A stretch of DNA of 64,000 nt, taken from a bacterium (GTDB taxonomy: Bacteria; Vulcanimicrobiota; Vulcanimicrobiia; Vulcanimicrobiales; Vulcanimicrobiaceae). The notes below the pieces were generated by a model. It worked only from the letters and a program-made list of their open reading frames with translations, did no database searches and had not been told where the DNA came from. The stretch spans positions 1-64,000 of the forward strand of contig JAJYCL010000009.1 of the NCBI GenBank assembly GCA_021778415.1, in the 5' to 3' direction. Below, piece by piece: positions 27,191 to 34,049 of the stretch. The position numbers were made by a program, and so were the translations under genes. Positions within the stretch are counted from its first letter, which is position 1. Each line of letters begins with the position of its first letter.

Positions 27191-28042
27191 GCGTGCGTCG
27201 CGGCATTGATGCTTGTTTCGTGCGGAGGCGGCTCAGCGGGTCAAGCATCGACTCCTCAAACGCCCGTTCCGTCAACCCCTGTGGCGACGCCGACTGCGAT
27301 ACCGTCGCCGAATTCGGGAGCTTTCTGGAAGCCATCGCTAACCGATAGTTTTCAGTGGATTTTGAGCACTGCGTTTGATACAAGCGTGAACGCAAGCGTG
27401 TACGACGTTGATATGTTCGGAACGACGGCTGCGCAGGTTGCGCAGTTACATGCGCTCGGCCGCCACGCCGTATGCTACATCGATGTAGGATCCTACGAAA
27501 ATTTCCGCCCCGATGCGTCCGCGTTTCCCGCTGCGGTCTTAGGGAATGTCTACGTTGGATTCCCGAATGAGCGATGGCTCGATATCCGCCGCATCGATCT
27601 TCTTTCGCCCATTATGACGGCGCGTTTTGATCTCTGTAAGAGCAAAGGCTTTGATGCTGTGGAGCCGGATAACGTAGACGGCTATCAAAATGCGACCGGA
27701 TTTCCCCTCAGCGCAAGCGATCAAATTACGTATAACACGTGGATTGCGTCGCTCGCGCATCAACGTGGGCTCTCCGTTGCGCTCAAAAATGATAGCGATC
27801 AAGTGTCATCGCTTGAACCGATTTTTGATTTTGCGCTAGAAGAGAGTTGTTGGGTCGGCGGAACGTGCGCGGCATTATCGCCCTTTCATGCCGACGGCAA
27901 AGCGGTCATTACGGTGGAATACACCGACGCCACATCGTCGAATACGTTTCTTACGCAATATTGCCCGCAGGCGAAAGCCCTGGGTTTTTATGCTCTGCTC
28001 AAAAATCCAATTCTTGATACGTGGGCGGAGCCGTGTCCGTAG
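27176..28042 (+). CDS. GH114-family (TM1410-like) lipoprotein, candidate polygalactosaminidase
   Basis: 288 residues. The lipobox LMLVSC lies about residue 14, followed by a short Pro/Thr linker. The GH114 landmarks are clear: FQWILSTAFD, YDVDMFGT, HAVCYIDVGSYENFRPDASA, ERWLDIRRID, DAVEPDNVDGYQN, SVALKNDSDQV. GH114 enzymes are TIM-barrel endo-alpha-1,4-polygalactosaminidases; the Asp residues of YIDVGS and VEPDNVDG are the likely acids. Starts at 27137 and 27152 are in frame, but the relic at 23890 keeps a ribosome-binding site only before the position equal to 27176. The 3' end overlaps pheA convergently by 44 bases. Confidence 0.88.
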   Translation: MRMFVACVAALMLVSCGGGSAGQASTPQTPVPSTPVATPTAIPSPNSGAFWKPSLTDSFQWILSTAFDTSVNASVYDVDMFGTTAAQVAQLHALGRHAVCYIDVGSYENFRPDASAFPAAVLGNVYVGFPNERWLDIRRIDLLSPIMTARFDLCKSKGFDAVEPDNVDGYQNATGFPLSASDQITYNTWIASLAHQRGLSVALKNDSDQVSSLEPIFDFALEESCWVGGTCAALSPFHADGKAVITVEYTDATSSNTFLTQYCPQAKALGFYALLKNPILDTWAEPCP

Positions 28043-28856
28043 ATTTTTCATAAGCTCCGAGCACGTGCGCGCGGCCGTCAAATGCCTGCAAAAAGTGATC
28101 GACAGCTATGGGCTCGCTACTTTGACACTCGATATAAAAGGTGTACTCAAATGGTCGAATGCGGCTTGGCCGTGCAACGAGCGACCGCACATTGATCTGA
28201 AGTTTGGCAAAAACACCCAACGCTTCGTGTAAAGAACCGGGGCGATGGTGAAGGTGGAGGGCTACGCAAAAGCGCGTTGCCGATTTTACCGATTGCACCG
28301 TGCCGGCAACGATGAAGAAGCGAGTGACGTTGGGTTCCTCGTCGTTGACGGTGGCTCTGAGAATCTCTCCGCCATAGAGTTTTGCCGCAGCGGCCGGGCC
28401 GATGGCGGCAACATGGCGATCACCGTTTGCGATCATTTCACGAATGGCACCCGCGGTATCGTGCGCAGCCTGCACTTCGAGATGAGACTCTTGGGTGAAG
28501 AACGTTCGACATTGTTCGAGCGCAACGGGATGTGATCGCACCGTCGTAATCTCCTCAAAGGCGACTCCCGGAAGGCCGACAAGCGTTTGCACGATCGTTT
28601 CCTCGGTTTCGTCGATGATCGTGATCCCGTCGTAGGCGAGCAGCAGATCATAGGCACGTGAGATCGAACCGTGCAATGAATTTTCGCAGGGAAGAATTGC
28701 CGCGGCAATCGTTCCGTCAGCGACCGCTGCAATCAGCGCATCAAAGCTGGTGAATCCTCGTGAGCGGGCAGCGGGAAACACGCGCCGTGCGACGGAGTCG
28801 CTAAAGGCGCCAGGCTCTCCCTGAAACCCGATGATCGCGGATTCGAGCGGCTTCAC
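27999..28856 (-). CDS. pheA: Prephenate dehydratase (stand-alone, PDT-ACT)
   Basis: 285 residues. It converts prephenate to phenylpyruvate, the Phe branch. All usual catalytic motifs are present: GEPGAFSDSVA, LPCENSLHGSI, RSHPVALEQC, AAHDTAGA, AAIGPAAAAKLYG and NVTRFFIV with the essential Thr. An ACT domain follows (about 190-270), but where homologues read ESRP this one reads SLVARPSR, so phenylalanine feedback may be weakened. The GTG start overlaps the tyrA stop (GTGA). It is the last gene of the aromatic operon and overlaps GH114 convergently. Confidence 0.94.
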   Translation of the reverse strand: MKPLESAIIGFQGEPGAFSDSVARRVFPAARSRGFTSFDALIAAVADGTIAAAILPCENSLHGSISRAYDLLLAYDGITIIDETEETIVQTLVGLPGVAFEEITTVRSHPVALEQCRTFFTQESHLEVQAAHDTAGAIREMIANGDRHVAAIGPAAAAKLYGGEILRATVNDEEPNVTRFFIVAGTVQSVKSATRFCVALHLHHRPGSLHEALGVFAKLQINVRSLVARPSRIRPFEYTFYIECQSSEPIAVDHFLQAFDGRAHVLGAYEKSTDTAPPTYQELDF

Positions 28857-29647: not shown

Positions 29648-30024
29648 GATGCGTGAAGTTTGCTTAAATCAGGGCGTAAGACGACGGCACCGTCCAGATA
29701 GACGTGGTCAATCTCGTCTTGAGCCGATGTGGTCGTAACGTGCATGAGGACGCGTATGCATTGCGCCAATCCACCGTGCACATCTATTTCCGTGAAGTGC
29801 AACATCGGAATGTGAACCCAGCCCATTTCACGCGCGCCGAGTGCCGGGAATGCGGCGTGCAGATCCGGCGTAAGGCTGAAGAGGACGGAAGCGATATCAT
29901 CGAGAGCGATGCCGTTGCGGGCGACGATTTCGCGAAGAAGGCGTTGCGTCGCGCAAATGATGTCATTCGTCGTATCGGCGTCCACCGTGATGGCCCCGCG
30001 AATACCGCGTAACTTTGCGCTCAT
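29644..30024 (-). CDS. aroH: AroH-type chorismate mutase
   Basis: 126 residues. It rearranges chorismate to prephenate, feeding both following genes. The AroH fold is recognisable by RGIRGAITVDADT, FSLTPDLHAAFPALGAREMGW, LHFTEIDVHGGLAQCIRVL and HVYLDGAVVLRPDL. The Arg in GAREMGW and the Arg-Val-Leu segment are active-site positions of the family. The ATG is fixed by the four-base overlap with the stop of the upstream fusion gene. The family is less common than AroQ. Confidence 0.94.
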   Translation of the reverse strand: MSAKLRGIRGAITVDADTTNDIICATQRLLREIVARNGIALDDIASVLFSLTPDLHAAFPALGAREMGWVHIPMLHFTEIDVHGGLAQCIRVLMHVTTTSAQDEIDHVYLDGAVVLRPDLSKLHAS

Positions 30025-31784
30025 ACCGTCATCCCTGCACGATGTGAGAGTGGAATGGATGCGAGATCGTCCACGATATCGGCGAAATCGCCAAACGTGA
30101 GCGCTTGCTCTTTGTCGCATTTCGCCTCCGCCGGATTTGGATGGACTTCGATGAGCAGCCCATGCGCACCAACTGCTTTGGCCGCTCTGCACAATGGGCG
30201 AATCCAGCGTCGCACGCCGACGGCGTGACTCGGATCGACGAAGACCGGCAAGTGCGTGCGTTCGCGCAAGACGGGAATTGCCGAAAGATCCAGCGTGTTC
30301 CGCGTCGCGTTTTCAAACGTTCGAATACCCCGTTCGCACAGCATGACGTTAGGATTGCCCTCCGAGAGTATGTACTCTGCAGCCGCAAGAAGTTCATCGA
30401 TTGTTGCCGAGAGCCCACGTTTAAGCAAAACCGGATGCCCGGTCCGTCCCACAGCTTTGAGGAGATCGAAATTTTGCATATTGCGAGCGCCGATTTGCAA
30501 GACATCGATCTGCCCGGTGAGGCGCTCGACTTGATCGATGGTCATCACTTCACTCACCGTCGGAAGGCCGGTTGCTCGGCCGGCTTCCGCAAGCAAACCG
30601 ATGCCTTCCCAGCCAAGGCCCTGAAATGCGTAGGGACTCGTTCGCGGCTTGAATGCGCCGCCGCGAAGCATCAGTGCTCCGTTGCTCTGCACCGAGCGTG
30701 CGGTTTCCATGATTTGTTCGCGCGATTCGACGGAACACGGTCCGGCGATAATGACGAATTCGCCGTCGCCGATGCGTACACCACCGATATCAAATGTGCT
30801 TCCCTGCGGGCGCGCAGCCCGTGTAACGCGCGGGATGTGCGAATTTTCGTATACGGCGATGCTTTGCGGCGCACGTACTTCTTGGGCTTGTGCGACCGGA
30901 GAAACAACCTCGTTGGTACGATGCGGTGCGCCTACATGCGCATCATAACTTCCCAAGAGCGAAAATGCGTTGGCTTCCGATGAGATGGCGGCAAGCGCCG
31001 ATTCCACCTGCGGATCGCCTACGTCGCCATCGAGATCGAGATAGAAACCATGGTCGCTTCCGTGGCCCAAGCGCGGCTTGGATTCGAGCTTATGAACGTT
31101 GATGTCGCGGCGTGCAAATTCGGTGAGACACGTCGCGAGTTTCCCCGGAGCATCGGCCAAGCTGAAGATGAGCGAGGTCTTCTTGCGAGTTCCGCGCTCT
31201 GGTTGCGCGAGCGGATGGTCGGAAGCGATGTTGGGGGAGCGAACGAGAAGAAAGCGCGAAAACGTCTCCGGATCGTCGGCGCAGTGCGCGGCGAGTTCCT
31301 TGAGCCCATAAATGTCGGCGGCTGCGGATGATGCGAGGGCGGCGACGGTGGGATTGCCGCCACGCGCAACTTCGCGCGCAGCAACGCCCGTATCTTCGCA
31401 CGGAATGACACGAGCATTGGGCAAACTCGCCAGAAATTGTCCGCATTCGGCGATGACCAATGGATGCGCAAGAATTTCACGGACGTCGCGCAGCTCTGAA
31501 CCGCGGATACCGAGCAAACGATGATCGGTATGCCAGAGCACCTCGCGTATGGGGACAAGGCCGAATGCTACGACGATGTCATAACATTCGCGAACGGTGC
31601 CGGCGATGGCGTTCTCAATCGGCAGTACGCCGATATCGGCGCGCAGTGCGCTCACGGTCGTGGCAACATTGGCATAGCGCGGCACGCCGATCGTTGTCGC
31701 CTCGAATCCACGTTCTCGCAGAAAATGATCGATGACCAATTGCGAGTATGCGCCTGCGACGCCCTGATACGCCCCGATAACCAT
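30021..31784 (-). CDS. Fusion: prephenate dehydratase-like - ACT - DAHP synthase (type I-beta)
   Basis: About 587 residues. Residues 1-180 are prephenate-dehydratase-like (GAYQGVAGAYSQ, LPIENAIAGTV, ALASSAAADIYGL). Residues 205-285 are an ACT domain (DAPGKLATCLTEFARRDINV, then HKLESKPRLG). From about 330 to the end comes a KDO8P-synthase-like DAHP synthase: IIAGPCSVES, LRGGAFKPRTSPYAFQG, QIGARNMQNF, LLKRGLS, MLCERGIRTFE, VFVDPSHAVG. DAHP synthase catalyses the first shikimate step. In the dehydratase part, SHP...Q is AHP...E and TRF is SRF, so catalysis is doubtful and a regulatory role is likely. The ATG at 31784 has GAGGA upstream; the longer frame runs through the leader terminator. Confidence 0.9.
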   Translation of the reverse strand: MVIGAYQGVAGAYSQLVIDHFLRERGFEATTIGVPRYANVATTVSALRADIGVLPIENAIAGTVRECYDIVVAFGLVPIREVLWHTDHRLLGIRGSELRDVREILAHPLVIAECGQFLASLPNARVIPCEDTGVAAREVARGGNPTVAALASSAAADIYGLKELAAHCADDPETFSRFLLVRSPNIASDHPLAQPERGTRKKTSLIFSLADAPGKLATCLTEFARRDINVHKLESKPRLGHGSDHGFYLDLDGDVGDPQVESALAAISSEANAFSLLGSYDAHVGAPHRTNEVVSPVAQAQEVRAPQSIAVYENSHIPRVTRAARPQGSTFDIGGVRIGDGEFVIIAGPCSVESREQIMETARSVQSNGALMLRGGAFKPRTSPYAFQGLGWEGIGLLAEAGRATGLPTVSEVMTIDQVERLTGQIDVLQIGARNMQNFDLLKAVGRTGHPVLLKRGLSATIDELLAAAEYILSEGNPNVMLCERGIRTFENATRNTLDLSAIPVLRERTHLPVFVDPSHAVGVRRWIRPLCRAAKAVGAHGLLIEVHPNPAEAKCDKEQALTFGDFADIVDDLASIPLSHRAGMTV

Positions 31785-31804: not shown

Positions 31805-31842
31805 AAAGCAAAGAAAAAGCCCCCGCCGGATCGGCGAGGGCT
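31805..31842 (-). terminator. Intrinsic terminator in the aromatic operon leader (attenuator)
   Basis: Read on the minus strand: AGCCCTCGCCG, loop ATC, CGGCGGGGGCT (one G-T wobble), then TTTTTCTTTG. It lies about 20-30 bases before the fusion gene start and 26 bases after the leader peptide stop, the classic place for an attenuator. An upstream segment at 31880-31891 (CGGCTCGGGGTT) can pair with the left arm and so could form the antiterminator. Confidence 0.85.
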
Positions 31843-31867
31843 TGCGTGTTTTTCATTTGTGACTTCG

Positions 31868-31945
31868 TTACGCGCAAACAACCCCGAGCCGACCCAGCGG
31901 GCCGCCGAAATAAAATGAATATGCGTACGAAAACATGCGATTCAT
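31868..31945 (-). CDS. Phe/Tyr-rich leader peptide
   Basis: A 25-codon ORF, starting MNRMFSYAYSFYFGG. Six of residues 5-13 are aromatic: Phe, Tyr, Tyr, Phe, Tyr, Phe. This is the hallmark of transcription attenuation leaders such as those of pheA and pheST in enterobacteria: ribosome stalling at Phe or Tyr codons when charged tRNA is scarce prevents the downstream terminator from forming. A second ATG lies at 31936. No good ribosome-binding site is visible, and the best promoter would start transcription within a few bases of the ATG, so translation may be leaderless. Confidence 0.78.
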   Translation of the reverse strand: MNRMFSYAYSFYFGGPLGRLGVVCA

Positions 31946-31954
31946 GTGGAGGCC

Positions 31955-31984
31955 ACTAAAGCACGCATCAGGTGCTATTGTCAA
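31955..31984 (-). promoter_or_regulatory. Candidate promoter of the aromatic operon
   Basis: On the minus strand a perfect TTGACA (31979-31984) is followed after 18 bases by TTTAGT (31955-31960). Transcription would begin near 31948, right at the leader peptide ATG (31945). Confidence 0.55.
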
Positions 31985-32127: not shown

Positions 32128-32235
32128 ATGGGCCGCGTGAATCGTGCTCAAAAAATGGCCAAAACTCATAGAGAGTTCCGTCGTCAGCTACGGCAGGGCC
32201 AGCGCCGCAAACGATGTGAGTCGGTTGAGGAATGA
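32128..32235 (+). CDS. Possible 35-residue basic peptide ending in the IS terminus
   Basis: ATG at 32128; the peptide is very rich in Arg, Lys and Gln (HREFRRQLRQGQRRKR). Its TGA stop at 32233-32235 is formed by the first three bases of the IS3 left terminal repeat. It may be the 5' part of a small gene truncated by the insertion, or chance. No strong ribosome-binding site. Confidence 0.25.
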   Translation: MGRVNRAQKMAKTHREFRRQLRQGQRRKRCESVEE

Positions 32236-32286
32236 AGCTGGCCCGATTCCGTGGACATTTTCCGCCTTGCATAGAAAGGTCCATCC

Positions 32287-32604
32287 ATGCCTCAAAAATA
32301 TACCCGGGCCTACCCGGCCGATTTTCGGCAAAAGATTGTTGAGCTTGCTCGCGTAGGCCGTGGTGCCGACGATTTAGCTGCCGAGTTCAAGCTCGCAAGA
32401 CAAACCGTTCGGACTTGGATCAAGCAAGCCGATCTTGACGCGGGACGCCGCACGGGCGGCCTCACAAGCGCCGACCACGAAGAAGTCGCGCGATTGCGTA
32501 AACGCGTTCGACAACTCGAAACCGAGCGCGATATTTTGTCAAAAGCCGCGGCGTGGTTTGCTCGCGAGACCGATTCGATCCCATCAAAGTCTTCGAATTC
32601 GTGA
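32287..32604 (+). CDS. IS3-family transposase OrfA
   Basis: 105 residues. A helix-turn-helix at about 10-50 (FRQKIVELARVGRGADDLAAE, FKLARQTVRTWIKQ) is followed by a leucine-zipper-like coiled coil (EVARLRKRVRQLETERDILSKAAAWF). OrfA binds the IS ends. The frame ends at 32604, inside orfB, consistent with a -1 programmed frameshift producing OrfAB; CAAAAGC near 32540 is a possible slip site, which is inference. Confidence 0.92.
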   Translation: MPQKYTRAYPADFRQKIVELARVGRGADDLAAEFKLARQTVRTWIKQADLDAGRRTGGLTSADHEEVARLRKRVRQLETERDILSKAAAWFARETDSIPSKSSNS

Positions 32605-33448
32605 GAGCTTATCACGCCCTATGGCCCGTTACTACGCAATGCCGCGTGCTGGATGTCTCGACCAGCGGCTACTATGCGTGGCTCAAACGCCCGCTCTCGA
32701 AACATGGTCAACGTGATTGTGTGCTTGGCGATCGGATTGTGGCGTTGCATCGCGCCGCACGAGAAGTGTACGGTCGCCCGCGCATTCAAGCAGATCTTCG
32801 TGACGAAAATATCTTTACGAGTGACAAGCGTGTTGCGCGACTGATGCGAGAACGTCATATTCAAGGAGCAAGCCGCCGCAAGGGCTTCATGACGACAGTG
32901 CGTGACAAAGAAGCGCGTCCCGCTCCCGACTTGGTTCACCGGCAATTTACAGCTTCGGAACCGAATAAACTTTGGGTCGCCGACATCACGTACGTGCCGA
33001 CATGGTCGGGATTCTTGTTTCTCGCGGTCGTACTCGACGTATTCAGCCGCCGTATTGTCGGGTGGTCGATGGCAAACCACATGCGTGCCGATCTCGTCGT
33101 TGATGCACTGAACATGGCAATTCACAATCGGAAACCGGAGAATGTGATTCACCACTCGGACCAAGGTTCGCAATACACGTCTATTGCGTTTAGTAAACGA
33201 TGCGAAGCAAGCGGCGTTCGCACTTCGATGGGATCAGTCGGCGATTGTTACGACAACGCCATGTGCGAGAGCTTCAACGCAATTCTCGAATGCGGCTGCT
33301 CGTCAAGCATCGGTTCCGAACGCAGCGCGAAGCGGCACTCGCGGTCTTCGATTTCATCGAGGGCTTCTATAACTTGCGCCGCCGCCACACCTCGATTGGC
33401 AACATCTCGCCGGCGGAATTCGAGCGGCGCATGAGTCAAGCCGCTTGA
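32553..33448 (+). pseudogene. IS3-family transposase OrfB, frameshifted near its C-terminus
   Basis: The rve-type integrase core is intact in one frame: LWVADITYVPT (first Asp), VIHHSDQGSQYTS (second Asp) and CYDNAMCESFNAILE (Glu). After about 33292 the family C-terminus (HRFRTQREAALAVFDFIEGF, then RRRHTSIGNISPAEF) continues only in another frame, ending at 33448. One base appears to be lost near GAATGCGGCTGC. The unshifted frame runs on to 33434 with meaningless sequence. The element is therefore probably immobile unless complemented. Confidence 0.85.
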
Positions 33449-33510
33449 TGTCTAACCAAAAACTCTCCGCGAAAGCGGGCCAGCTTCACTATGTCACAGT
33501 GGGATCCAAA

Positions 33511-33744: not shown

Positions 33745-33953
33745 TGGCCGCCTTGTTCTTCTGGCTTCCGCAGTTAATCGTCCTAGGAACCGTGGTCTTT
33801 GTCTGGTCAACCTTGCGTAGGCAAAATCGGGCTGGCCAATCGGCGGAAGTTCATAAGGGAATGACGCCATTTCTCGGGGCTAGCTTAATCTTTTCGTCGT
33901 TGGTCATAGCCTTTTCCGTAACCGGTATTCTGGAACACTACTTCTTGCCGTAG
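33744..33953 (+). CDS. Small hypothetical two-helix membrane protein
   Basis: 69 residues, with hydrophobic segments ALFFWLPQLIVLGTVVFVW and ASLIFSSLVIAFSVTGIL separated by a polar loop (RRQNRAGQSAEVHKG). ATG 33744 overlaps the previous stop; a GTG at 33732 is also possible. Followed by a strong terminator at 33969. Unknown function. Confidence 0.45.
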   Translation: MAALFFWLPQLIVLGTVVFVWSTLRRQNRAGQSAEVHKGMTPFLGASLIFSSLVIAFSVTGILEHYFLP

Positions 33954-33968
33954 CACCTAGCATACAAC

Positions 33969-34004
33969 ACAAAGAGCCCGGCGTTTGTGCGCCGGGCTCT
34001 TTGT
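33969..34004 (+). terminator. Intrinsic terminator
   Basis: ACAAAGAGCCCGGCG (33969-33983) pairs perfectly over 15 bases with CGCCGGGCTCTTTGT (33990-34004) around a six-base loop. Confidence 0.8.
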
Positions 34005-34027
34005 TAAAGCGCGTCTTTTTACGAGAT

Positions 34028-34049
34028 TGAAGCTGGCCCGCTTTCGCGG
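34028..34049. repeat. Orphan IS3-type terminal inverted repeat
   Basis: The 22 bases starting TGAAGCTGGCCCGCTTTCG are the exact reverse complement of the IS right end at 33467-33488. Inward sequence soon diverges from both ends of the IS. It may be the remnant of a second copy, or the outer end of a 583-base unit carrying the two small membrane genes. Confidence 0.8.

Follow-up and report, generated by a model that had tools for sequence, protein, structure and literature searches.

A probable ribosome-mediated transcription attenuator with a leaderless aromatic leader peptide, conserved ahead of a DAHP synthase fusion operon in Eremiobacterota

The window analysed here is a stretch of 64,000 nucleotides (positions 1 to 64,000 of contig JAJYCL010000009.1), and its minus strand carries a four-gene operon for the Phe/Tyr branch of aromatic amino acid synthesis. 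The first gene (31784–30021) encodes a 587-residue fusion protein that joins a prephenate dehydratase-like domain (PDT; PF00800, 2.2e-38), a weakly matching ACT domain and a DAHP synthase domain (PF00793, 1.5e-78), and is preceded by a Shine-Dalgarno motif GAGGA (31796–31792). It is followed by genes for an AroH-type chorismate mutase (30024–29644; PF07736, 2.4e-43), the probable ATG of which overlaps the stop codon of the fusion, a prephenate dehydrogenase (29647–28853; PF02153, PF20463) and a prephenate dehydratase with an ACT domain (28856–27999; PF00800, 7.4e-49). Each of the latter two overlaps the gene before it, and all of genes 2–4 overlap the respective preceding gene by 4 nt. The dehydratase domain within the fusion (30021–31784) has an SRF motif and the ACT motif ESKP, and the separate dehydratase (27999–28856) has TRF and VARP; SRF is common, not universal, among the fusion orthologs. 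A split into regulatory and catalytic copies is a possible explanation of this pair.

Upstream of the operon, a −35 box TTGACA (31984–31979) and a probable −10 box TTTAGT (31960–31955) are separated by 18 bp. The −10 box of the window is a poor match, and most of the clade-A relatives have TTNNAT in the aligned column. Nine bases past TTTAGT, an ATG (31945) opens a leader-peptide ORF of 25 codons, MNRMFSYAYSFYFGGPLGRLGVVCA, which ends with TAA at 31868. Both this ORF (31945–31868) and the TTGACA upstream of it can be read directly from the minus strand, as reported in the preliminary description of this DNA, and the count of three Phe and three Tyr codons given there is also right: all six are found among codons 5–13 (F S Y A Y S F Y F; 31933–31907). 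Under uniform codon use, six aromatic residues in codons 2–13 of the leader are expected with P = 1.8e-4. It is plausible from these codons that the window leader senses both Phe and Tyr. About 250 bp separate the leader promoter from the end of an IS3-like element lying upstream (32233–33488), which has two overlapping transposase ORFs and imperfect inverted repeats of 29 nt.

The leader ORF is followed by an intrinsic terminator hairpin, AAGCCCTCGCCG-ATC-CGGCGGGGGCTT (31843–31817; dG −22.2), and its T tract (31818–31810); TTTTTCTTT comes after the hairpin. The hairpin with a T tract had been recognized before, but its distance from the stop codon of the leader is 24 nt rather than the 26 given earlier. 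The ATG of the fusion gene (31784) lies about 32 nt beyond the hairpin. The leader RNA (162 nt) folds better than all of 200 shuffled versions (z = −3.2), and in its minimum-energy fold codons 16–25 are paired over a long stretch with the left arm and the loop of the terminator. The left arm of the antiterminator (31899–31870) is encoded by leader codons 16–25, and its right arm (31849–31824) spans the left arm, the loop and part of the right arm of the terminator. The antiterminator element CGGCTCGGGGTT of the preliminary description is exact in its letters (31891–31880) and in its pairing with the left arm of the terminator; the complete arm, however, measures about 30 nt instead of 12, and its pairing extends across the loop of the terminator and some way into the right arm.

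The named organisms most closely related to the window are Candidatus Eremiobacterota, so the window probably belongs to this phylum, of which Vulcanimicrobium alpinum is the cultivated member (PMC9758169). For comparison, 149 genomes of the phylum Eremiobacterota were used. The PDT-ACT-DAHP synthase fusion was found in 39 of them, all from the same family as the window, and the DNA upstream of the fusion was read for 37 genomes. An aromatic leader ORF and a terminator precede the fusion in 28 genomes belonging to 14 genera, and a counterpart of the terminator hairpin is present in 28/28 of these leaders. In one further genome (L113), the promoter and the start are there, but an assembly gap falls inside the leader. 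In genus g35 (eight genomes: L008, L011, L012, L014–L016, L117 and L118), the fusion is kept, and the leader ORF, the aromatic run and the terminator are lost. This genus is the only case of what had been named beforehand as evidence against attenuation, namely a fusion gene without the aromatic run and the paired stems; the device is kept in the 14 other genera. The same leader also occurs ahead of a DAHP synthase-chorismate mutase fusion in genus g31, and in genus g5 ahead of chorismate mutase and prephenate dehydrogenase genes without a DAHP synthase. Such fusions in Myxococcota, Actinomycetota, Chloroflexi and Krumholzibacteriota have no such leader upstream.

Within their first 16 codons, the 28 leaders contain from three to nine aromatic residues, and the aromatic fraction of this segment is 0.34 in the leader frame vs 0.07 and 0.08 in the two alternative frames. 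Most of the leaders combine Phe, Tyr and Trp codons (16 out of 28), while Phe and Tyr codons are found in seven, Tyr and Trp codons in four, and Phe codons only in one. In total, Trp codons occur in 20 of the 28, so what the leaders have in common is an aromatic content rather than Phe and Tyr codons in particular.

Pairing between the arms of the antiterminator is conserved as well: the segments homologous to the two arms form a duplex in 28/28 genomes. When arms were permuted between genera, with one sequence per genus and the kinship of the genera outside the model, cognate pairs proved to be more stable than permuted ones (mean −34.4 vs −28.9 kcal/mol, z = −5.3, p = 5e-5). The same test gave z = −3.5 for clade A alone, and its negative controls were null (leader start, z = 0.2; promoter DNA, z = −0.5; reversed segment, z = 1.3), so the concern over kinship is limited, though not removed. 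Compensatory changes are exemplified by GGGGAUUCG with CGAGUCCCC in L013 and by GGUGCG with CGCGCC in L028. Out of 1000 synonymous versions of the window arm, not one pairs as well as the native sequence (z = −4.1); over the 28 genomes, this control gave a mean z of −1.46, and some genomes fall short of significance (e.g., L007, L017 and L116). RNAalifold applied to a MAFFT alignment recovered the antiterminator only in fragments, because the spacer aligns badly, and pairwise duplex tests with permutation were used instead. Covariation, the synonymous-codon control and folding of the window RNA agree that the antiterminator excludes the terminator and sits where a stalled ribosome leaves the RNA free. 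The alignment of related leaders proposed in the preliminary description therefore yields conserved aromatic codons and stems with compensatory changes, and its main suggestion, attenuation in front of a DAHP synthase fusion operon, is supported by all of the comparative tests, in which a leader, aromatic codons, a terminator and a covarying antiterminator proved to be kept in 14 genera.

The position of the promoter is conserved together with the leader. A TTGAC[A/G/T] box is equally spaced from the leader start in 28/28 orthologous leaders, with 31, 32, 33 and 34 nt between the end of the −35 hexamer and the start codon in five, nine, 13 and one of them, respectively; the sequence of this spacer diverges while its length holds. 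With a normal promoter, such a distance places the start codon at about +1 to +3, so that translation of the leader would begin no more than about 3 nt from the transcript start. An SD-like motif was found in 2/28 leaders vs 20/28 structural genes, and the latter count is an underestimate, because a later start was taken in some clade-B genomes. The leaderless translation that had been suspected earlier is strongly suggested by the spacing in 28/28 leaders and the scarcity of SD-like motifs. It had also been called unusual, which does not hold, as leaderless leaders are usual among some other attenuators, e.g., those of Streptomyces (PMC8079986). Across the whole genome, the pattern TTGACA-N31–34-ATG matches 48 times vs 22 for the reversed pattern, which hints weakly that other leaderless starts may exist there.

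An attenuator whose leader is not leaderless, with an unseen upstream promoter providing a 5′ UTR and with TTGACA being secondary or a chance match, would fit the weak −10 box of the window. It is nevertheless improbable, given that the 31–34 nt spacing is kept throughout the 14 genera despite the diverging spacer, that the leaders are without Shine-Dalgarno sequences, and that a similar spacing (29–34 nt) is seen in Trp and other leaders described below.

Taken as a whole, the device very probably works by ribosome-mediated transcription attenuation, with a leader peptide that is translated from a leaderless start. Transcription would begin at the leader ATG or a few bases from it, and the ribosome would load directly at the 5′ end of the RNA and trail RNA polymerase. 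In a shortage of charged tRNA-Phe or tRNA-Tyr, the ribosome would stall in codons 5–13. Codons 16–25 would then be free to form the antiterminator with the just-transcribed left terminator arm, allowing read-through into all four genes of the operon. When aminoacyl-tRNAs are plentiful, the ribosome would reach the stop codon and mask the antiterminator arm, the terminator would form, and transcription would end. The geometry of the window was modelled with an assumed ribosome footprint of about 14 nt past the start of the A-site codon: with a stall anywhere in codons 5–13 the antiterminator arm is wholly or largely exposed, and a ribosome at the stop codon covers it. In modelled equilibrium folding of the window RNA, the probability of the terminator is 0.00–0.33 with a stalled ribosome vs 0.95 with a released one. 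In several relatives (e.g., L025, L026 and L013), equilibrium folding favours the terminator for every position of the ribosome, and the switch there must therefore be kinetic, i.e., depend on the order of co-transcriptional folding.

The conserved peptide might act in trans, as is reported for peTrpL of Sinorhizobium, besides or instead of attenuation. Roles in trans are possible for leader peptides (PMC7298713), and near relatives share similar C-terminal halves; however, RNA pairing accounts for the C-terminal half, and both the length and the C-terminus of the leader vary between genera while the pairing stays. A peptide role of this kind is improbable. Control of the terminator by a T-box, a metabolite riboswitch or a protein-binding attenuator, with the ORF being incidental, would also account for a terminator with an alternative fold. 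This is highly unlikely, as there is no Rfam match in the window leader or in its relatives, the aromatic enrichment is specific to one frame, and the codons of the leader shift with the downstream pathway. Short ORFs are common, but the view that this one arose by chance, with a promoter on one side and an ordinary terminator on the other, is contradicted by conservation and covariation in 14 genera and is of negligible probability.

Leaders of this form, with other sensor codons, were found elsewhere in the same genome and phylum. A second DAHP synthase gene of the same genome (G000, contig C41; locus L122; L153 about 1380–1580) is preceded by TTGACG, 30 nt and an ATG, which opens the apparently leaderless Trp-run leader MFSVRSISWWWHLTAICR, and by a terminator; Trp-rich leaders of this form precede the corresponding DAHP synthase paralog in about ten genera. 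The third DAHP synthase of the genome (C6) has no such leader; thus, the codon content of the leader follows the branch of the enzyme. In a search of this genome with a Trp-run pattern, the DAHP synthase paralog was found along with matches near the control level, and a His-run pattern gave one chance-like match.

A covariance model built on the aromatic leaders matches 78 of the 149 phylum genomes, some of them in other families, with part of the score coming from the GC-rich terminator, a shape that may be common in these genomes. The own-genome matches of the model other than the window leader were near noise. Among the best matches read, the distance from the −35 box to the start is 29–34 nt, and the sensor codons vary with the gene: leaders with Ile/Val/Leu runs precede ilvB and ilvC, and one with a Leu run precedes leuA; there are Thr/Ile/Met leaders before thrC and an amino-acid kinase gene, a Trp leader before trpD, a Cys run before a 1-Cys peroxiredoxin gene, and aromatic leaders before genes for EPSP synthase and for DAHP synthases of two other families. 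The apparently leaderless Ile/Val/Leu-type leaders before ilvB, ilvC and leuA, which occur in many Eremiobacterota (L233, L237–L239, L242, L243, L245, L249 and L250), have the same antiterminator design. The antiterminator test gave z = −5.3 for 14 leaders of mixed specificities and z = −2.5 for 12 Trp leaders, with null controls. In the genome of the window, a TPP_enzyme_N search revealed no acetolactate synthase, its single match being another TPP enzyme, which explains why an ilvB leader was not found there; branched-chain auxotrophy or an assembly gap is possible.

At L236 (492–1784), a Thr/Ile/Met-type leader precedes a protein joining an amino-acid kinase, an ACT and a Trans_reg_C winged-helix domain. 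A Tyr-run leader starting with MLVRTYAYGYYYYGYSAES is located before a protein family without a Pfam match (L240, L244 and L253), and at L252 (about 219–390) the Cys-run leader, MFETGRSAMCCCLCRPRTGRPGFSLA, and a terminator precede the gene for the 1-Cys peroxiredoxin, for which control by Cys attenuation is not usual.

There is a roughly even chance that the leaderless attenuators of the phylum, the window leader being one of them, share a single RNA scaffold, of which the sensor codons were exchanged in evolution. Such a scaffold would consist of an antiterminator encoded by the latter half of the leader and a CUCGCCG-type terminator, combined with Phe/Tyr/Trp codons before shikimate genes, Trp codons before the second DAHP synthase and trpD, Ile/Val/Leu codons before ilvB, ilvC and leuA, Thr/Ile/Met codons before thrC and the amino-acid kinase gene, and Cys codons before the peroxiredoxin gene.

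Ribosome-mediated attenuation is a classical mechanism. The device of the window shares with the pheA and trp leaders of Escherichia coli the logic of stalled ribosome, antiterminator and terminator, whereas the E. coli leaders have Shine-Dalgarno sites. The enterobacterial pheA, trp and his analogy drawn in the preliminary description concerns the mechanism; in sequence the device is not recognizable as such a leader, and covariance models of the Rfam leader families (Trp, Phe, His, Leu and Thr) gave no match at the window leader. Sub-threshold Rfam matches to the Thr and Leu leaders (25–27 bits; cut-off, 50–55) occur on both strands at 33948–34036 of the window, which is probably a simple palindromic stretch.

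A close counterpart by function, the level at which the two were compared, is aroR of Corynebacterium glutamicum, an aromatic (Phe-Tyr-Phe) leader located before the DAHP synthase gene aroF and acting by ribosome-mediated transcription attenuation (Neshat et al. 2014, as described in PMC11802643 and PMC4046766); according to the former, aroR responds to Phe limitation and not to Tyr availability. Compared with aroR, the device of the window belongs to a different phylum, has more aromatic codons, and its relatives often include Trp; in addition, its target is a PDT-ACT-DAHP synthase fusion heading a Phe/Tyr operon. Leaderless leader ORFs with sensor codons, downstream hairpins and a Rho-independent terminator are described for trpL1, ilvL and leuL2 of Streptomyces lividans (PMC8079986). 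These attenuators resemble that of the window in the leaderless ORF, the sensor codons and the terminator, and differ in being actinobacterial and specific to other amino acids, with no Phe/Tyr member given. In Mycobacterium, leaderless polycysteine sORFs also govern a downstream operon through sensor codons (Canestrari et al. 2020, cited in PMC13236596); they are Cys-specific and described in PMC13236596 as translation attenuation, whereas the device of the window has a transcription terminator.

Attenuators of the leaderless kind are known in Actinobacteria (Streptomyces trpL, Corynebacterium aroR) and, as far as found, not from Eremiobacterota; a literature search, which was short on subscription journals, revealed no reports linking Eremiobacterota with leader peptides or amino-acid attenuation. 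Judged by its codons, the aromatic sensor of the window is unusually mixed. The leaders described here indicate that leaderless leader peptides also occur outside Actinobacteria. With transcription and translation starting at the same point, such leaders would be compact sensors, the ribosome binding the nascent RNA immediately. The presence of leaders of the same architecture and differing specificity in one lineage would let the change of an attenuator's amino acid be followed.
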